Shown one piece after another: positions 23,381-59,082 of a DNA stretch of 64,000 bases. The first letter of the stretch is position 1. The number at the start of each line of letters is the position of its first letter. The notes under the pieces were generated by a model. The model saw nothing but the letters and a program-made list of their open reading frames with translations. It did not search any database and was not told the origin of the DNA. Source of the stretch: Marisediminicola antarctica (GTDB taxonomy: Bacteria; Actinomycetota; Actinomycetes; Actinomycetales; Microbacteriaceae); NCBI RefSeq assembly GCF_009930795.1, contig NZ_CP017146.1, positions 2,170,001 through 2,234,000 of the forward strand, given 5' to 3'. Position numbers and translations under genes: made by a program.

Positions 23381-25657
23381 ATGAGCGAGATCACGACGTC
23401 GAACCTCTCATCGCTGCGCACGCTCCTGCCCCGCCTGTTCTCGAAGGCGCAGCCGGTCGGGGCCGTTGACCGCCTCATCCGCACCGCGCGCACCAATCAT
23501 CCGAAGGCCGACATCTCGGTCATCGAACGTGCCTACGTGACAGCCGAGAAGGCCCACCGGGGCCAGATGCGCAAGAGCGGCGAGGCGTACATCACGCACC
23601 CCGTCGCTGTCGCGCAGATCCTTGCCGACCTCGGCATCGGCCCGAAGACACTCGCCGCGGCGATTCTGCACGACACCGTCGAGGACACCGGCTACAGCCT
23701 CGACCTGCTGCGCCAGGAGTACGGCGACGAGATCGCGATGCTCGTCGACGGTGTCACGAAGCTCGACAAGCTCAAGTACGGCGACAGCGCCCAGGCCGAG
23801 ACGGTGCGCAAGATGGTCGTGGCGATGTCGAAGGACATCCGCGTGCTCGTGATCAAGCTCGCCGACCGTCTCCACAACGCCCGCACCTGGGGCTTTGTGG
23901 AATCGGAGTCGGCCCGGCGCAAAGCGCAGGAGACCCTCGAGATCTACGCGCCGCTCGCGCACCGCCTGGGAATCCAGACGATCAAGTGGGAACTCGAGGA
24001 TCTCTCGTTCGCGGTGCTCTACCCCAAGCTGTACGTCGAGATCGAGAGCCTGGTGCGGCAGCGCACCCCACAGCGTGAGGAATTCGTGCAGGAGGTCATC
24101 GACGCCGTCGGCGAGGACCTCAAGGTCAACCGGGTCAAGGGCAAGGTCGCCGGGCGACCCAAGCAGTACTACTCGATCTACCAGAAGATGGTCGTCCGCG
24201 GCCGGGAGTTCGACGAGATCTACGACCTCGTCGGCATCCGCGTCCTCGTCACGTCGCTGCGCGACTGCTACGCCGTGCTGGGCGCGATCCACGCTCGCTG
24301 GACACCGATTCCCGGCCGGTTCAAGGACTACATCGCCACACCGAAGTTCAACCTCTACCAGTCGTTGCACACGACTGTCATCGGACCGCACGGCCGCCCT
24401 GTCGAGATCCAGATCCGCACGGAGGAGATGCACCGCCGGGCCGAATTCGGCGTCGCGGCGCACTGGAAGTACAAGGACCGCATGAACGGCGGCAAAGCCG
24501 CCGCCGCCGGCATGGCCGGAGCGGGCGCGAGCCTCACCGACGAGGGCGATATGGCGTGGCTCGCCCACATCACCGATTGGCAGGCTGAAACGGTCGACCC
24601 GAGCGAGTTCCTCGACTCACTCCGTTTCGAGATCGGCGCGAAGGAGGTCTACGTTTTCACCCCGCAGGGGAAGGTCATCGGCCTTCCCGCCGGGGCGACA
24701 CCCGTCGACTTCGCCTACGCCGTGCACACCGAAGTCGGCCACCGCACCATGGGGTCCAAGGTGAACGGGCGCCTCGTTCCGCTCGAGACGACCCTCACCA
24801 GCGGTGACGTCGTCGAAGTCTTCACGTCGAAGAACCCCGACTCGGGTCCCAGCCAGGACTGGCTGACGTTCGTCAAGAGCCCCCGCGCACGCAACAAGAT
24901 CAAGCAATGGTTCACCAAGGAACGCCGCGACGAGGCCATCGAGCAGGGCAGGGACGCCATCGCGCGCGCGATGCGAAAGCAGAACCTCCCGCTCCAGCGC
25001 CTGATGAGTCAGGACTCGCTGAGCGAGGTCGCGGCTCAGCTCCGTTACGACGATGTGTCGTCGCTCTACGCCGCCGTCGGCGAGGGCCACGTGTCGACCC
25101 AGTCGGTGCTCGAGAAGGTGCTTGCCACGATCAACACCGACGCCGAGACGGAGGACGCCGAGCTGACCCTGCCGAGCCGCGGCAAGTCGAAGCAGCTGCG
25201 CAACAGCGACTCCGGCGTTCTCGTGCGCGGCGCGCCGGACATCCTCGTCAAGCTGGCCAAGTGCTGCACCCCGGTGCCCGGCGACCCGATCGTCGGGTTC
25301 GTCACCCGCGGCGCGGGAGTTTCCGTGCACCAAGCCGACTGCCACAACGTCTCGTCGCTGCAGAATGAGCCTGAGCGGATGATCGAGGTCGAGTGGGCTC
25401 CATCGTCGAAGAGCATCTTCCTCGTCCAGATCCAGGTCGAGGCGCTCGACCGCTCCGGGCTGCTGTCGGACGTGACACGGGTGCTGTCCGAGCACCACGT
25501 CAACATCCTCTCCGCGACCGTGACCACCTCGAGCGATCGCCTCGCTCTCAGCCGCTTCGTCTTCGAGATGGGCGACACCACCCACCTCGACCGCGTGCTC
25601 AACGCGGTGCGCCGCATTGATGCCGTGTACGACGTCTACCGGGTCAGCGCCGGCTGA
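23381..25657 (+). CDS. relA: Bifunctional (p)ppGpp synthetase/hydrolase (Rel)
   Basis: 758 residues with all domains of a long RSH protein: HD hydrolase (H97-D98 in ILHDTVEDTGYS), synthetase (GRPKQYYSIYQKM ... YDLVGIRVLV, then YQSLHTTVIGP), TGS (VYVFTPQGKVIGLPAGATPVDFAYAVHTEVG), the zinc-finger/CC region (KLAKCCTPVPGD) and a C-terminal ACT domain (LLSDVTRVLSEHHVNIL). It makes and degrades the alarmone on the ribosome. The 3' end overlaps by 14 bases the convergent gene on the minus strand. Confidence 0.97.
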   Translation: MSEITTSNLSSLRTLLPRLFSKAQPVGAVDRLIRTARTNHPKADISVIERAYVTAEKAHRGQMRKSGEAYITHPVAVAQILADLGIGPKTLAAAILHDTVEDTGYSLDLLRQEYGDEIAMLVDGVTKLDKLKYGDSAQAETVRKMVVAMSKDIRVLVIKLADRLHNARTWGFVESESARRKAQETLEIYAPLAHRLGIQTIKWELEDLSFAVLYPKLYVEIESLVRQRTPQREEFVQEVIDAVGEDLKVNRVKGKVAGRPKQYYSIYQKMVVRGREFDEIYDLVGIRVLVTSLRDCYAVLGAIHARWTPIPGRFKDYIATPKFNLYQSLHTTVIGPHGRPVEIQIRTEEMHRRAEFGVAAHWKYKDRMNGGKAAAAGMAGAGASLTDEGDMAWLAHITDWQAETVDPSEFLDSLRFEIGAKEVYVFTPQGKVIGLPAGATPVDFAYAVHTEVGHRTMGSKVNGRLVPLETTLTSGDVVEVFTSKNPDSGPSQDWLTFVKSPRARNKIKQWFTKERRDEAIEQGRDAIARAMRKQNLPLQRLMSQDSLSEVAAQLRYDDVSSLYAAVGEGHVSTQSVLEKVLATINTDAETEDAELTLPSRGKSKQLRNSDSGVLVRGAPDILVKLAKCCTPVPGDPIVGFVTRGAGVSVHQADCHNVSSLQNEPERMIEVEWAPSSKSIFLVQIQVEALDRSGLLSDVTRVLSEHHVNILSATVTTSSDRLALSRFVFEMGDTTHLDRVLNAVRRIDAVYDVYRVSAG

Positions 25658-46612: not shown

Positions 46613-47176
46613 TTGCCTTTCAGAATCGTTCTGCAGCAAGCTGATATCGCCCGAGCGTTGACTCGGATCTCGCACGAGATCCTCGAGTCCAATCGCGGCC
46701 CCGACGATCTCGTCATACTCGGCATCCCCACGCGCGGGGTGATCCTCGCCGAGCGAATCGCCCGGCTGATCTCCGACATCTCCGGGCGGCCCGTCGCCTC
46801 GGGATCACTCGATGTAACGATGTACCGCGACGACCTCTCTCGCAACCCGACGAGGGCGCCCTCGCCGACGCGGGTGCCCGCGACCGGCATCGACGGCTCC
46901 GTCGTCGTGCTCGTCGACGACGTGCTCTACTCCGGCCGCACGATCCGCGCAGCCCTCGATGCGCTCGGCGACATCGGGCGGCCGCGCGTCGTGCGCCTCG
47001 CAACCCTCATCGACCGCGGGCATCGGGAGCTGCCGATCCGGCCCGACTTCGTTGGCAAGAACCTGCCGTCCGCCCAGGGTGAGCGCATCTACGTGCGACT
47101 GCACGAGAGCGACGGCGACGAGTTCGTCAGCATCGACGGCGGCGAGAGCCCCGGCCAGAACGGGGCACAGAAGTGA
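46613..47176 (+). CDS. pyrR: Pyrimidine operon regulator / uracil phosphoribosyltransferase PyrR
   Basis: 187 residues of a type I phosphoribosyltransferase: [27 protein letters not shown] and the PRPP loop [21 protein letters not shown]. It binds the leader RNA when UMP is high and has uracil phosphoribosyltransferase activity in relatives. The TTG start has an AAGGAGG Shine-Dalgarno and the PyrR loop just upstream, so it likely represses itself. The stop overlaps the pyrB GTG. Confidence 0.95.
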
Positions 47177-48129
47177 AGCACCTGCTGAGCACCCGCGACC
47201 TGACGCGCGATGAGGCCATCGGTATCCTCGATGTCGCCGAGGACATGGCCGACGTGCAGTCCAGGGAGGTGCGCAAGCTGCCGACCCTGCGCGGACGCAC
47301 CGTCGTCAACCTCTTCTTCGAGGACTCCACCCGCACCCGCATCTCGTTCGAGGCGGCCGCGAAGCGGCTGAGCGCCGACGTCATCAATTTCAGCGCCAAA
47401 GGCTCAAGCGTCTCGAAGGGCGAGAGCCTCAAAGACACGGCGCAGACCCTCGCCGCGATCGGAGCGGATGCCGTCGTGATCCGGCATCCGGCATCCGGCG
47501 CCCCCCAGGTGCTCGCGCAGAGCAACTGGATCGAGGCCGGCATCATCAACGCCGGCGACGGCACCCACGAGCATCCGACCCAGGGCCTGCTCGACGCGTT
47601 CACCATCAGGAGGCGCCTGCACGGCACCGCCTCGCGCGGCAGATCGCTCGACGGCGTGCGCGTCACGATCGTCGGCGACATCCTGCACTCGCGCGTCGCC
47701 CGCTCCAACGTCTGGCTGCTCACGAGCCTGGGCGCCCAGGTACACCTCGTCGCCCCGGCGACGCTGCTGCCGGTCGGTATCGCGAACTGGCCCGTCACGG
47801 TCGGCTACGACTTCGACGAGGCCATCGACGCCGGGACCGATGTCGTGATGATGCTGCGGATCCAGGCCGAGCGGATGATGTCGGGCGGGTTCTTCCCGAA
47901 CGCACGGGAGTACTCGAAGCGCTGGGGCCTCGATGACGCGCGGGTCGACCGTCTCCACGCCGCTACCATGGTGATGCACCCAGGTCCCATGAATCGCGGC
48001 CTCGAGATCTCCTCCCGCGCCGCCGACTCACCCCGGTCGACTGTGCTGGAGCAGGTCGCAAACGGGGTTTCGGTGAGGATGGCAGTGCTGTACCTCGTCT
48101 TGTCTGGGGAACGCGGAGAACTTTCATGA
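47173..48129 (+). CDS. pyrB: Aspartate carbamoyltransferase catalytic subunit
   Basis: 318 residues. [19 protein letters not shown] binds carbamoyl phosphate, [12 protein letters not shown] is the 80s loop, and [12 protein letters not shown] and [12 protein letters not shown] are later motifs. It makes N-carbamoyl-aspartate. No pyrI is seen, as is usual for actinobacteria. The GTG start overlaps pyrR and the stop overlaps pyrC (ATGA). Confidence 0.97.
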
Positions 48130-49469
48130 CAACCACCCTTCTCGTCACCGGCGCGACCCTCGCCGACGGAACCCGCACCGACCTAGTCGTGCGCGACGGT
48201 CGCATCAGCGAGGTCGGCACCGGCCTCAGCGCCACCGGCGCACGGGTCATCGACGCCGACGGACTCACCGCCCTGCCCGGCCTCGTCGACCTGCACACCC
48301 ACTTGCGTGAGCCCGGGTTCGAGCACAGCGAGACCGTGCTGACCGGATCGCGCGCGGCGGCGATCGGCGGATTCACCGCGGTGCACGCCATGGCCAACAC
48401 CTCGCCCGTCGCCGACACCGCCGGCGTCGTCGAGCAGGTCGAGTCGCTCGGCCGTCGCGCCGGGTACGTCACCGTGCGCCCGATCGGCGCCGTCACCGTG
48501 GGCTTGGCCGGCCAGCAGCTCTCCGAGATCGGGGCCATGGCGAATAGCCGCGCGCGGGTGCGGGTCTTCTCCGACGATGGCAAGTGCGTCTCGGACGCCC
48601 TCCTGATGCGCCGCGCCCTCGAATACGTGAAGACCTTCGACGGCGTTGTCGCACAACACGCTCAGGAGCCCCGGCTCACCGAGGGCGCCCAGATGAACGA
48701 GGGAGTCGTGAGCGGCGAACTCGGCCTCGCCGGCTGGCCCGCCGTCGCCGAGGAGGCGATCATCGCCCGTGATGTGCTTCTCGCGCAGCACGTCGGCGCC
48801 CGCGTGCACATCTGCCACCTGTCCACCGCCGGATCCGTCGAGGTTGTGCGCTGGGCGAAGGCGAGGGGCATCCGCGTCACCGCCGAGGTGACCCCACACC
48901 ACCTGATGCTCACCGAGGAGCTCGTCCGCAGCTACGACGCGCGCTACAAGGTCAACCCGCCGCTGCGCCGCCAGGAGGACGTGCTCGCTCTGCGCGCCGG
49001 ACTCGCCGACGGTACCATCGACATCATCGCGACCGACCACGCGCCGCATCCGTCCGAGTCGAAGGATTGTGAGTGGACCGCCGCGTCGATGGGCATGGTC
49101 GGCCTCGAGTCCGCCCTCTCCGTCGTGCAGGCCTCCGTCGTCGACAACGGGATGCTCGACTGGAACGACATCGCCCGGGTGCTCTCGAGCCCCCCCGCCG
49201 CGATCGGCCGCCTCGACGGCTACGGCGACGGGATCGCGGTCGGCGCGCCCGCCGAGTTCACCCTCTACGACTCCTCCGCGAGCCGCGTCTTCGACACCGA
49301 CGCTCTCGCGGGACAAGGCCGCAACTCGCCGTTCCTGCAGCTGAGACTGCCGGGCCGTGTCGTCGCGACGGTGCACCAGGGTTACCCGACCGTGCTCGAC
49401 GGGCAACTTATCGCCGAGGAGACCGTCTCGGCGGCCGCCGCCAGGGCCGCTGGGGGTACCCATGGATAA
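48126..49469 (+). CDS. pyrC: Dihydroorotase
   Basis: 447 residues, class I type: metal ligands in [13 protein letters not shown], in [10 protein letters not shown] and in ATDHAPH, and substrate contacts in NPPLR. It closes N-carbamoyl-aspartate to dihydroorotate. The ATGA overlap with pyrB and the 8-base overlap with the next gene place it in the operon. Confidence 0.96.
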
Positions 49470-49980
49470 CCGGGTCATCTCGGGCGCCATCGTGCTGGCG
49501 GTGCTCGTGCTCCTCCTCGCGCTCATGTACGCGGGGTGGCGGCGACGCCAGCGGCGCCAGTCCGGCATCCCGCGGCCGCAGGGCCTTCCCGAGCTGACCG
49601 GGCGCGAACTCGTCACGGTCGAGGCCTTCTACGTCGCCTCGACGATGACAGACGAGCCGCTCAACCGCATCGCCGTCGCCGGCCTCGGATACCGCGCCCG
49701 CGCCCGCGTGCAGGTCTTCGAGTCGGGGATCTCGCTCGGCATCGCGGGGGAGCCGGATGCCTTCATCCCGCGCTCCGACCTCGTGGCCGTCGAGCGCGCC
49801 ACCTGGACCATCGACCGCGTCGTCGAGACCGGCGGCCTCGTGCGTATCGTCTGGCGACTCGGCGACACCACCATCGACAGCTACCTCCGCGTGCCGGAGC
49901 CCACCGATCCGTCGGCGCTCATCGGCGCGATCGAGTCAATCATCACGGCGCCGACCCGCGCCAGGAACGAGGAACAGTGA
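49462..49980 (+). CDS. Membrane protein of the pyr operon (Rv1382-like position)
   Basis: 172 residues: a single N-terminal membrane helix ([21 protein letters not shown]) followed by Arg-rich WRRRQRRQ and a soluble beta-rich domain of about 130 residues. The same slot, between pyrC and carA, holds a membrane/export protein in Mycobacterium (Rv1382). Function unknown; the position suggests co-regulation with pyrimidine synthesis rather than an enzyme step. Confidence 0.85.
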
Positions 49981-49985
49981 CGAGC

Positions 49986-51136
49986 ATGGATCCAGCAGTG
50001 CTGGTGCTCGAAGACGGCACCCGATACGTCGGACGCGCCTGGGGCGCGCGCGGGCGCACATTTGGCGAGGCCGTGTTCTCGACGGGGATGACGGGCTACC
50101 AGGAGACCCTCACCGACCCGAGCTACGCCGGGCAGATCGTGCTGATGACGGCCCCGCACATTGGCATCACCGGGGTGAATGACGAAGACCCGGAGTCCCG
50201 CCGCATCTGGGTCAACGGCTTCGTCGCGCGCGACCCCTCCCGCGTGGTGTCGAACTTCCGCGCGAACGGCAGCCTCGACGACCAGCTCGTCGCCGACGGC
50301 GTCGTCGGCATCAGCGGCGTCGACACGCGCGCGGTCACCCGCAGGCTGCGCGACGCCGGCGTCATGCGCTCCGGCATCTTCTCGGGCGCGGATGCCGCGC
50401 TCGACCCGGCCGAGCAGCTGCGGCTCGTGCGGTCCGGCGAGGACATGCGCGGACTCAACCTCTCCGACCGGGTGTCGGTCATCGCGCAGTACCGGATCGC
50501 GCCGGAGGGGGAGCGGATCGGACTGGTCGCGGTTCTCGACCTCGGCGTCAAGGAATCCACCCTGCGCTACCTCGCCGCGCGCGGCTTCGAGGTGATGGTG
50601 CTGCCGCAGTCGGTGAGCGCCGAGCAGCTGCGCGACCTCGACCCCGACGCGCTCTTCTTCTCCAACGGCCCGGGCGACCCGAGCGCATCCGACGCCCACG
50701 TCGCCCTGCTGCAGGGCGCCCTGCGCGACGGCGTGCCGTTCTTCGGCATCTGCTTCGGCAACCAGCTCCTCGGCCGGGCCCTCGGCTTCGGCACCTACAA
50801 GCTGCCGTTCGGCCACCGCGGCATCAACCAGCCCGTCGTCGACAAGACGACCGGGCGGGTCGAAATCACCTCCCACAATCACGGCTTCGCGGTCGACGCG
50901 CCCATCGGCGCACCCACCCGGTCGCCGGCCGGGTTCGGCCTGGTCGAGGTGAGCCACGTCAACCTCAACGACAACGTCGTCGAGGGCCTCAACGCCCTCG
51001 AAATCCCCGCCTTCTCGGTGCAGTACCACCCCGAGGCCGCCGCGGGGCCACACGACGCCAACTACCTCTTCGACCGGTTCCGCGACATGGTGCTCACCAC
51101 CGTCGCAGCCCGCGCCAACAAGAAAGACGACAAGTA

Positions 51137-51137
<1 letters not shown>
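49986..51137 (+). CDS. carA: Carbamoyl-phosphate synthase small subunit
   Basis: 383 residues from ATG; a GTG at 49977 overlapping the previous stop, with GAGGAA close upstream, is an alternative. The N-terminal CPSase domain has [18 protein letters not shown]; the C-terminal class I glutaminase has [19 protein letters not shown] (nucleophile Cys), SHNHGFAV and [11 protein letters not shown]. It feeds ammonia to CarB for pyrimidine and arginine synthesis. Confidence 0.96.
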
Positions 51138-54426
<3,289 letters not shown>

Positions 54427-54430
<4 letters not shown>

Positions 54431-55278
54431 TCGGCTTCGGCACACGCCTCGAGCAGGCCATCGACGGCCCCGGCCGCCTGTGCGTCGGCATCGACCCGCA
54501 CCCCTACCTCCTGCACCAGTGGGGCCTCGGAGACGACGCGGCGGGCTTGCGCGACTTCGGCCTGCGCGTCGTCGAGGCGAGCGCCGGCCGCGCGGGCATC
54601 GTGAAGCCGCAGGTGGCGTTCTTCGAGCGTCACGGCTCCGCGGGCTTCGCCGCTCTCGAAGAGGTGCTCCGCCAGGCCCGCGCAGCGGGCCTGATCGTCA
54701 TCGCCGACTCCAAGCGCGGCGACGTCGGCTCGAGCGTCGAGGCGTACGGCCAGGCGTGGCTGACCCCCGGCTCCCCACTCGAAGCGGACGCGATGACCGT
54801 CAGCGCCTTTCAGGGCGTCGGGTCGATCACCGCGCCGCTCGAACTCGCGGCCCGGCACGGCAAGGGGCTCTTCGTGCTCGCCGCGACCTCGAATCCCGAG
54901 GCGGCGGCCGTTCAGACCGCGATCATCGGGTCGGGCGCGCGTAGCGGACTGACGGTGGCTGCGGGTATTGTCGCCGACGTGACCGACTGGAATCGAGGCG
55001 ACCCCTCCGCCCGCATCGCGGGCGTCGGGGTCGTGCTCGGAGCCACGGTCGACTTCGCCGCGTACGGCATCGACACCGCGGCAGCGGACGAGGGACCGGG
55101 CACACCCATCCTCGCGCCGGGCTTCGGACACCAGGGCGCCCGGTTCGACCAGGTCAACGCAATCTACGGCGCTGCCGCAAGCCGCACCATCGTGGCCGCG
55201 TCGCGCAGCATCCTCACCGCCGGGCCGTCCGGGCTCGCCGCGGCCATCACCTCCCACGCGAACGAGGTCGGCGCATGA
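54427..55278 (+). CDS. pyrF: Orotidine 5'-phosphate decarboxylase (group 2)
   Basis: 283 residues. [11 protein letters not shown] at the start, [15 protein letters not shown] and the catalytic [12 protein letters not shown] identify the longer group 2 type found in actinobacteria. It forms UMP from OMP. No pyrD or pyrE lies in the window. GTGA overlap with carB and ATGA overlap with the next gene. Confidence 0.96.
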
Positions 55279-56198
55279 CGCAGTCAGGTCCACCGCCCGT
55301 CGACCGGGTCGCCGCATCCCGCGCCGCCGTGGCCGCGAGACGCCGCCGCGCGGTCGTGAAGCACGCCGTCGCGACGCGGCAGAGAAGCGCCGTCGACGTG
55401 CTCGACACCGCGTGGAGCGATCCGGATGCCGCCGCCGAGGCGACGCTGCGGGTGCGGGAGCTGCTGACCAGCGTTCCCACGCTCGGACCCACACGCACCG
55501 CCAAGGTCATGGCCGAGCTGCAGATCGCCGATTCAAAGCGGGTCGGCGGGCTCGGCTCCCGCCAGCGGGACCGGCTCCGGGACTGGCTCGTCGTGCGGGA
55601 GAGCCGGGGCACAGACACCGCGAAGGCCAAGCTCGTCGTCCTGGCCGGTCCGACCGCGGTCGGAAAGGGCACCGTCTCGACCTTCATCCGCGAGAACTAC
55701 CCCGACGTGCACCTCTCCGTGTCCGCAACCACGAGGGCCCCGCGGCCCGGCGAGGTCGAGGGGGTCAACTACTTCTTCGTGAGCGACGAGGAGTTCGACC
55801 GCCTCGTCGAGCGGGGCGACATGCTCGAGTGGGCGAAGGTGCACAACGCGTTCCGCTACGGCACGCCGCGGCGCCCCGTCGATGACAATCTTGCCAACGG
55901 AAGCAGTGTGCTGCTCGAGATCGACATCCAGGGCGCGCGGCAGGTGAAGGCGGCGATGCCGCAGGCCGTTCTCGTGTTCCTGCTGCCCCCGACCTGGGAC
56001 GAGCTGGTGCGCCGCCTCATCGGTCGCGGCACCGAAGGCCTCGCCGAACAGCAGCGCCGACTCGAGACCGCGAGGGTCGAGCTCGCCGCGCAGCACGAGT
56101 TCGACTACCGCGTCGTGAACGGTGACGTCGCCGAGGCGGCTGAGGAGGTCGTAGACTTGATGAGATTGCGCCCTCACGCGTCCCACGACTCCAGCTGA
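55275..56198 (+). CDS. gmk: Guanylate kinase with N-terminal integration host factor (mIHF) domain
   Basis: 307 residues in two parts. Residues 10 to about 105 match actinobacterial integration host factor: a basic helix ([19 protein letters not shown]), then [40 protein letters not shown] and RDRLRDWL, the helix-two-turn-helix DNA-binding core. Residues 118-300 are guanylate kinase: P-loop GPTAVGKG (125-132), [34 protein letters not shown] and [10 protein letters not shown]. In Mycobacterium mihF and gmk are separate neighbours; here they are one frame. The ATGA start overlaps pyrF, and no internal start precedes the kinase with a good ribosome binding site. Confidence 0.93.
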
Positions 56199-56222
56199 CT
56201 CAGCTGCATCCGCTTTCACTCG

Positions 56223-56250
56223 CACGCTTTCATTCACACGCTTTCATTCA
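56223..56250 (+). repeat. 14-bp tandem repeat in the rpoZ leader
   Basis: Two perfect copies of cacgctttcattca, preceded by a degenerate third (from about 56211), end 15 bases before the rpoZ ATG and just before its AGAAGGAG ribosome binding site. Confidence 0.9.
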
Positions 56251-56265
56251 CAGAAGGAGCACCAC

Positions 56266-56523
56266 ATGGTTGACAAGGCAAAGGGCATCATCGATCCGCC
56301 GATCGACGAGCTGCTGACGAAGGTCGACTCGAAGTACGCGCTCGTCATCTTCGCCTCCAAGCGTGCTCGCCAGATCAACGACTACTACGCCGACCTCCAC
56401 GAGGGAAGCCTGTTCGACAACGTCGGACCGCTCGTCGACTCCACGATCGAGGACAAGCCCCTTTCGGTCGCGCTGCACGAGATCAACGAGAACAAGCTCG
56501 TCGCAAAGCCCCTCGCCGAGTAG
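56266..56523 (+). CDS. rpoZ: RNA polymerase omega subunit
   Basis: 85 residues: [34 protein letters not shown] in segments typical of omega (RpoZ/RPB6), ending [20 protein letters not shown]. It helps the beta-prime subunit fold and assemble. AGAAGGAG precedes the ATG. It lies between gmk and coaBC as in Mycobacterium. Confidence 0.97.
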
Positions 56524-56546
56524 CACCGACCCTCGATCCCGACGCC

Positions 56547-57767
56547 ATGACCGACCCCGGCGTGCCGCGGAAACTCGCCAGCCGCCCGCTGAACATCGTG
56601 GTGGGGATCACCGGGGGAATAGCGGCCTACAAGGCCGTCGGCGTCATCCGCGCCTTCGTGCTCCTCGGGCACGACGTGCACGTCGTGGCGACGGATGCCG
56701 CGCTTCGATTCGTCGGGCGGCCGACGCTCGAGGCGATCAGCCGCAACCCCGTGCACACCGACCTCTACGAGGGCGTCGCGCAGGTGAGGCATGTCGCGAT
56801 CGGCCAGGCCGCCGATCTCATCGTGGTCGCACCGGCGACGGCGAGTTCGATCGCGAAGCTCGCGATCGGGCTCGCCGACGACCTGCTGGGCACCACGATC
56901 CTCGCCAGTAGCGCCCCCGTCGTCGTCGCTCCTGCCATGCATACCGAGATGTGGGTCAACGCAGCGACGGCCGCGAACGTCGCGACGCTCCAGTCGCGGG
57001 GTATCCGCGTCGTCGGCCCGGGAACCGGGCAGCTGACCGGCTCGGATGCCGGGGTCGGGCGCATGGTCGAACCCGACGAGATCGTCGCGGCGGCCCTGGC
57101 CGCGCTGCGCCCGCGGGACCTCAGCGGTCGGCGGGTGCTCGTCACCGCCGGCGGCACGCGCGAACCGATCGACCCGGTCCGGTACATCGGCAACCGCTCG
57201 AGCGGCAGGCAGGGCGTCGCGATCGCAGGAGCCGCCGCTCTGCGGGGTGCCACCGTCGAGCTGATCGGCGCAAACCTCGAGGTGTCGCCGCCCCCCGGCG
57301 TTCGACTGACCGAAGTGAGCTCGGCAGCCGAGCTGGCCGCCGCCGCCGCCACCTCCGCCGCCAGCGCCGACATCATCATCATGGCCGCGGCCGTCGCAGA
57401 CTACCGCCCGGAGATCACGACTCAGTCGAAGATCAAGAAGGAGACGCAGGGCGACAGACTGCGGATCGACCTCGTCAAGAATCCCGATATTCTGGCCGGC
57501 CTCGCGTCCACGAGGCACCGCGGTCAGGTGATCGTCGGGTTCGCCGCAGAGACCGAACCGGACGACTCCGCGCTGCTCGCCCTCGGACGGTCGAAGATCG
57601 TGCGGAAGGGTGCCGACTATCTCGTCCTCAACAGGGTGGGCTGGACGGAGGGCTTCGCGGTTCCTGACAACCGGGTCCTGGTCATCGATCTGGCCGGGGA
57701 TATAGTGATGGAGGCCTCCGGGAGCAAGTTGTCGGTGGCCGATCGCATACTCGACCTGCTGGCCTGA
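56547..57767 (+). CDS. coaBC: Bifunctional phosphopantothenoylcysteine synthetase/decarboxylase
   Basis: 406 residues. The N-terminal CoaC flavoprotein ([34 protein letters not shown] with the catalytic His, PAMHTEMW) decarboxylates PPC; the C-terminal CoaB ([42 protein letters not shown]) joins phosphopantothenate to cysteine. The flexible lid reads [13 protein letters not shown], without the Cys of E. coli; in my recollection other actinobacteria share this. It starts 23 bases after rpoZ. Confidence 0.95.
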
Positions 57768-57879
57768 CCGTACCTGGTTGGCCGGCGGCCCGACCCGCTC
57801 GGGTCTGCGCCCCCGATTCGCACGGCACTGCCGACGGAGTGGATCCGCCCGCCCGCCAACTTCCAGCTACGAGGCACAC

Positions 57880-59082
57880 ATGAGTACGTCACCGTCCGGC
57901 CTGCGCCAGTTCAGCTCCGAATCCGTCACCGAGGGACACCCCGATAAGATCTGCGACCAGATCTCCGACGGGATCCTCGACGCGCTGCTCGCCGACGATC
58001 CGCACAGCCGGGTCGCGGTGGAGACCCTCGTCACGACCGGCCTCGTGCATGTCGCCGGCGAGGTCACGACCACCGGCTACGTCGACATCCCCACCCTCGT
58101 GCGCGACACGATCACGGCGATCGGCTACAACTCCTCCGAAGTGAGCTTCGACGGAAGCAACTGCGGGGTGACAGTCTCGATCGGGTCGCAGTCGCCGGAG
58201 ATCGCTCAGGGCGTCGACAGGGCTCTCGAGGCCCGCAGCGGCGACAACGACCTCCTCAACGCGCAGGGCGCCGGCGACCAGGGCATCATGTTCGGATTCG
58301 CCACCCGCGAGACCCCCGAGTTCATGCCGCTGCCGATCTGGCTCGCCCACCGCCTCGCCGAACGTCTCGCCGCAGTGCGCAAGGAGGGGCTCGTCGACTA
58401 CCTCCGGCCCGACGGCAAGACCCAGGTGACGATCGGCTACGACGGACTCGTTCCGCGCACCGTCGAGACCGTCGTGATCTCGGCCCAGCACGCGCCCAGC
58501 GTGTCAGACGCGACCCTCACCCGCGAGATCGAAGAACTGGTGATCAGGCCCGTCCTCGAGCTCGCCGGCCTCGACTTCTCGTCGGCGGCCATGCTCATCA
58601 ACCCGACCGGCCGGTTCGAGATCGGCGGCCCCAAGGGCGACGCCGGCCTCACCGGGCGCAAGATCATCGTCGACACCTACGGCGGCGCCAGCCGACACGG
58701 CGGCGGCGCGTTCAGCGGCAAGGACCCGTCGAAGGTCGACCGCTCCGCCGCCTATGCGATGCGCTGGGTCGCCAAGAACGCCGTCGCGGCCGGCCTCGCC
58801 GACCGGCTCGAGGTGCAGGTCGCCTACGCGATCGGCAAGGCATCCCCGGTGAGCCTGTACGTGGAGAGCTTCGGCACCGGCCACATCGACGACGCCGCGA
58901 TCGGTCGGGCCATCCGCGACGTGTTCGACCTGCGCCCCGCCGCGATCATCCGCGATCTCGACCTGCTCCGCCCGATCTACTCGGCCACCTCGACCTACGG
59001 CCACTTCGGCCGCGAGCTTCCCGACTTCACCTGGGAGAAGCTCGACCGGACCTCGTCGCTGCGCAGCGCCGCCGGGCTGTAA
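57880..59082 (+). CDS. metK: S-adenosylmethionine synthetase
   Basis: 400 residues. [49 protein letters not shown] and the C-terminal YGHFGRE are methionine adenosyltransferase motifs. The frame is open upstream through a non-coding GC-rich leader, but ATG at 57880 gives the family start. The 112-base gap after coaBC shows no riboswitch fold that I can recognise and no clear ribosome binding site. Confidence 0.97.

Follow-up and report, generated by a model that had tools for sequence, protein, structure and literature searches.

The window that we analyzed, a 64,000-nucleotide stretch of the Marisediminicola antarctica genome, contains a single open reading frame on the forward strand (55275..56198, 307 amino acids) that joins an actinobacterial integration host factor (mIHF) to guanylate kinase (GMK). 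Its upstream neighbor on the same strand is pyrF, encoding orotidine-5'-phosphate decarboxylase (54427..55278; TIGR02127, 243 bits), and its downstream neighbor, also on the forward strand, is rpoZ, encoding RNA polymerase omega (56266..56523; TIGR00690, 68 bits). Based on the ORF coordinates, and in agreement with a spacing pattern found across the family, the stop codon of pyrF overlaps the start codon of the fusion gene in an ATGA tetranucleotide (55275..55278), which suggests that translation of these two genes is coupled. The surrounding region (46739-59082) is densely packed on one strand with pyrR (start uncertain), pyrB, pyrC, a gene for a PH-like protein, carA, carB, pyrF, the mIHF-gmk fusion, rpoZ, coaBC and metK. 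The longest carA ORF (49536-51137) contains ~150 residues ahead of the CarA match, which begins at residue 154. We rejected this ORF as a second fusion in the operon, as it probably has a wrong upstream start, and an out-of-frame ORF (49462-49980) with a PH-like domain (PF25362) covers the stretch.

The original prediction had read mIHF and guanylate kinase in one frame, and profile searches confirmed both assignments. The actinobacterial IHF (H2TH) domain spans residues 10-102 (55302..55580, forward strand) and matched NF041260 at 73.7 bits (curated domain cut-off 60), establishing mIHF similarity in the N-terminal half; it is followed by a complete guanylate kinase at residues about 118-300 (55626..56174, forward strand), which matched TIGR03263 at 213 bits (curated cut-off 160). 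The kinase sequence contains the P-loop GPTAVGKG at residues 125-132 (55647..55670), and in an alignment of 33 fused proteins the P-loop columns G125, P126, V129, G130 and K131 are invariant. Between the domains lies a short linker (residues 103-117; 55581..55625) whose length differs among relatives. A predicted structure of the fusion protein has both folds intact, with low confidence at residues ~111-120, and its pTM of 0.68 suggests that the orientation of the two domains is loose.

By sequence and fold, the C-terminal half is a guanylate kinase with an intact P-loop, and the N-terminal half belongs to the actinobacterial IHF family (sIHF/mIHF fold). Two features of that family are missing. 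First, the mIHF half is not a stand-alone small protein with its own leader, being fused and overlapping pyrF. Second, the RRxR motif ahead of GLG is replaced by KRVG, within a KRVGGLG loop at residues 88-94 (55536..55556) where most separate mIHFs have RR-x-R-GLG. A domain search of the fusion protein found no match to Bac_DNA_binding (PF00216), the domain of HU and E. coli-type IHF. NCBIfam types NF041260 as a domain model, and longer proteins may therefore be known to its curators.

In the closed 3.35-Mb genome of Marisediminicola antarctica, the fusion is the one IHF match above cut-off and the single guanylate kinase match at an E-value of 0.01 or better. A search for a second, stand-alone mihF found none; the sole other match (E = 0.104) is ribosomal protein S13. 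The same genome contains a single HU-type (PF00216) gene outside the fusion (L250; G000:C1:452685-452951) and has no match to Lsr2. No more than ~10 residues follow the HU domain in the product of this gene, which thus lacks the long basic tail of mycobacterial HupB.

We found the fusion across nearly all of the Microbacteriaceae, bacteria of soil and plants. Among 150 genomes of the family, 148 had a match, and the two without one are metagenome-assembled genomes (MAGs) that are 75% and 66% complete. In 137 of the 148 both halves share one frame; the remaining 11 comprise nine with the kinase only (five genera), one in which the gene is split across two contig ends and one with a frameshift. 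In this last genome (G403, locus L074), which we set aside, the fusion is frameshifted and pyrF is broken too, and the double break is likely a sequencing error. Of 80 named loci, 77 have the halves fused (74 from Microbacteriaceae and three from MAGs); the other three are from Micrococcaceae (Rothia twice, Pseudarthrobacter) and have a stop codon separating the halves.

Two broader samples of 396 genomes each, one from the order and one from the phylum, place the fusion within this family. In the order sample, all 34 family members matched both halves (one match being cut by a contig end), and outside the family at least one stop codon separated the halves in all 34 two-domain rows among the matches listed. 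In the phylum sample, a stop was present in 62 of 63 two-domain rows outside the family, again among the matches listed, and the 63rd (G825), a candidate for an independent fusion in another family, lies in a MAG and is joined only across N bases, an assembly gap. No fusion outside Microbacteriaceae was therefore present among the matches listed for either sample, from which poorly scoring fusions could be missing. Conversely, within the family, rows flagged as containing a stop proved to have both halves in one open frame in nine genomes of the family sample and seven of the order sample. The arrangement expected from Mycobacterium, two separate adjacent genes, was thus seen in related families, in both samples and in the Micrococcaceae loci. 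In one other family (code f4) of a sample from the order, mIHF is also missing, with 14 genomes lacking an mIHF match and none having one among those listed.

To place the fusion on a phylogeny, we concatenated five protein pieces and built a tree for 73 of 90 loci, after removal of 17 near-duplicates or poor rows, the frameshifted locus among them. Fused and gmk-only loci fall together on one side of a branch with an SH-aLRT support of 100, where the 21 separate rows come from the best-scoring mIHF loci and do not include the named Micrococcaceae. Fusion states require three changes in all on this tree. On this quick tree with long branches, the gmk-only rows split into a nested group and a basal one; the six basal rows, from three genera, may always have lacked the fusion. 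The likely, though not proved, history is a single fusion that was later lost once or twice.

The five gmk-only genera, in which the mIHF half is absent, are mostly small-genome. Their nine genomes contain only weak, partial IHF matches below cut-off, and in seven of the nine the weak match was ribosomal protein S13, in a check that covered all but G462 and G521. The distance between the pyrF and gmk matches is at most 70 nt in eight of the nine loci and ~310 nt in the ninth (L068, genome G462). In this locus a ~60-residue stretch rich in Pro, Ala and Thr, which is probably disordered, heads the kinase frame where mIHF would be. As purifying selection maintains the domain in most genera whereas these five keep gmk without it, we infer that the kinase benefits from mIHF but can do without it.

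Fused and separate loci also differ in the DNA between pyrF and the IHF start. By our start-codon rule, on which these spacings depend, the gap between the pyrF stop and the start of IHF has a median of -4 nt in fused loci (48 of 50 usable, two having no usable pair; no more than 20 nt in 45) and of 154.5 nt in separate loci (40 of 49 usable, nine having no usable pair; more than 20 nt in all). A first scan with generic TTGACA/TATAAT elements gave p = 0.057 for separate versus fused loci. A promoter-like element, TTG-N19..22-TAnnTT, was present upstream of mihF in 41 of 74 separate loci, where shuffled sequences predict 2.4, and mostly lies 77-112 nt from the gene; none of 48 fused loci contains it (0.6 expected). 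The motif was defined after viewing the best matches of the separate set, so these counts are descriptive, and it is missing from 33 of the 74, a set that holds at least three genomes twice with one such pair among the 41 matches. In loci L004-L033, L232-L242 and others of the order, the element often reads TTGCCG-N17-TAGGTT or TACTTT. In M. tuberculosis, three potential transcription starts are reported to have been mapped for mihF itself (PMC6155035). Fused loci may have a diverged promoter within pyrF. Codon choice for Arg, Gly and Val was the same in the IHF and GMK halves of both 37 fused and 36 separate loci, and is uninformative for expression.

The mIHF half itself has been remodeled. 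A basic residue occupies 13 positions in 80% or more of 71 separate mIHFs; in 50 fused proteins, eight of these stay basic and five do not, and two basic positions are gained. The RRxR ahead of GLG has become KRxG, its third position (91) being G in 47 of 50 fused proteins compared with R in 60 of 71 separate ones, and position 72 has changed from K to P in 31 of 50. Eight columns switch their conserved residue with fusion in the IHF half versus one in the kinase. Other features are retained: the invariant RxxRAxxK helix is kept, and the net charge of the IHF half is +8.0 in fused proteins versus +5.8 in 27 separate loci. Of the three arginines needed for DNA binding by mIHF, two are kept, as K and R.

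This half also diverges faster. The ratio of IHF to GMK distances is 2.07 in fused loci versus 1.10 and 0.67 in two separate sets, one of which (27 loci) is biased toward the best-scoring, most conserved mIHFs and the other of which (44/45 loci) contains gene pairs mainly picked for good fused-model scores, with two genomes present twice. When GMK distance was matched by binning, divergence of the IHF half in fused loci was only 1.1 to 1.9 times that in the broader separate set. Across 54 close, non-independent pairs, which replaced 4676 wider pairs in which the measure was saturated, the IHF half has a dN/dS of 0.157 and the kinase one of 0.098. From the dN/dS of 0.157, the switched columns and the faster divergence in these alignments, we conclude that the mIHF half is under purifying selection, with a constraint that is both altered and weaker.

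To account for these observations, we propose that a mihF gene joined the downstream gmk once, in or near the ancestor of Microbacteriaceae, likely through loss of the stop codon between two genes that were often already in a shared frame. The mihF leader and its promoter-like element would then have vanished as the reading frame came to overlap pyrF. As both are gone and the gene overlaps pyrF, the fusion protein is probably made as a product of the pyrimidine operon, and its copy number would be set by the need for Gmk rather than for a bulk nucleoid protein. In its product, sequence and predicted fold both indicate an entire guanylate kinase, to which a short flexible linker attaches a full-length mIHF/H2TH domain. 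The remodeled basic surface of this domain most likely tethers the kinase to DNA or a different nucleic acid, and the protein is most likely not an abundant nucleoid protein like mycobacterial mIHF. A cell with this fusion seems no longer able to make mIHF and the kinase separately. We consider the whole explanation, in which a single fusion, the lost leader and the remodeled mIHF half gave rise to a low-copy, tethered guanylate kinase, to be moderately probable. That the kinase binds DNA, as the original prediction had offered as one outcome, is possible given the full-length mIHF fold and the net positive charge in the alignment and the model.

An alternative is that the fusion is passive, such that the protein still acts as a full bulk nucleoid protein, guanylate kinase rides along and the two activities are independent. 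Consistent with this, the fusion is the only mIHF of a genome with a single HU gene and no Lsr2 match, and the fold, the invariant helix and the net charge are retained. However, the leader and promoter-like motif are lost, the mIHF domain evolves faster, five of 13 conserved basic positions are gone and nine gmk-only loci lack the domain. We consider this reading unlikely.

We judge equally improbable a reading in which the mIHF half has ceased to bind DNA and serves the kinase as a regulatory or structural accessory, affecting dimer geometry, lid opening or (p)ppGpp sensitivity, or as an RNA or protein binder. The substitutions at positions 91 and 72 point in this direction, as does a published report that, in B. 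subtilis and E. coli, contacts between subunits set the response of GMK to (p)ppGpp (PMC6783271). Nevertheless, the eight retained basic positions and the net positive charge argue against loss of DNA binding, the single switched kinase column versus eight in the IHF half gives no sign of a new kinase interface, and the pTM of the model suggests loose packing.

The original prediction had also raised release of the domains by cleavage or internal initiation. An in-frame GTG is present in the 28 codons ahead of the kinase in 105 of 127 fused ORFs, and the low-confidence linker could be cleavable; both would allow separation of the halves during or after translation into free mIHF and free Gmk. 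Against this, only nine of the 127 ORFs have an in-frame ATG in those codons, and a start with a Shine-Dalgarno match of at least 5 nt occurs in three of 127 versus eight of 34 separate gmk loci (17 of 127 versus 13 of 34 for at least 4 nt), where the fused set holds some genomes twice and the scan of the separate control took in more sequence (45 codons). We found no conserved internal start with a Shine-Dalgarno match across the 127 fused ORFs, and, in the 33 aligned fused proteins, no sequence support for cleavage of a linker that is short and variable in length and sequence. Separation of the halves is therefore very unlikely. The original interpretation is partly supported: the fusion is real, its parts are neighboring separate genes in related families and the genome has no second mihF, but release by internal initiation is not supported. 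A sequencing or annotation artefact, of the kind that G403 does have, is refuted by the shared frame, seen in 137 of 148 matched genomes of the family and in 77 of 80 named loci, and we dismiss it.

The original prediction further linked the fusion to (p)ppGpp, and the window does contain a RelA/SpoT gene (23381-25657), ~30 kb from the fusion. Inhibition of guanylate kinase by (p)ppGpp is described for several phyla in two papers, and the summary in one of them includes most actinobacteria but not M. tuberculosis (PMC6783271, PMC5686395). A link of the fused kinase to the stringent response is thus possible. A bolder proposal, which we regard as doubtful, is that Gmk is chromosome-associated across the family and that occupancy of DNA and occupancy of the kinase site, by GMP or inhibitory (p)ppGpp, affect each other; if true, guanine nucleotide state would be read directly by chromosome structure.

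In these genera, the only mIHF is hidden in a protein to which annotation would give the name guanylate kinase. A literature search by title and start of abstract, which reached few subscription papers, found no published description of an mIHF-Gmk fusion, and gmk goes unmentioned in the sIHF passages of an actinobacterial review (PMC4255298). In M. tuberculosis, mIHF is reported to be essential and to rank with the ten most abundant proteins (PMC6155035). Nearly an entire family ties this protein one-to-one to an enzyme and has dropped its leader, and some members are without it, providing a natural experiment on what the actinobacterial nucleoid protein is for and on whether an enzyme of central metabolism can operate from a position on the chromosome. 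Unlike mIHF (Rv1388) of Mycobacterium and sIHF (SCO1480) of Streptomyces, which are free proteins of ~105 amino acids, the protein described here is fused to Gmk and has no leader of its own, its RRxR-GLG has mostly become KRxG-GLG and its domain evolves faster. In comparison with actinobacterial guanylate kinase (M. tuberculosis Rv1389, 1znw/1s4q), the fusion adds an N-terminal DNA-binding-type domain of ~105 residues, and in placing a guanylate kinase fold within a multidomain protein it resembles the guanylate-kinase-like domains of animal MAGUK proteins.
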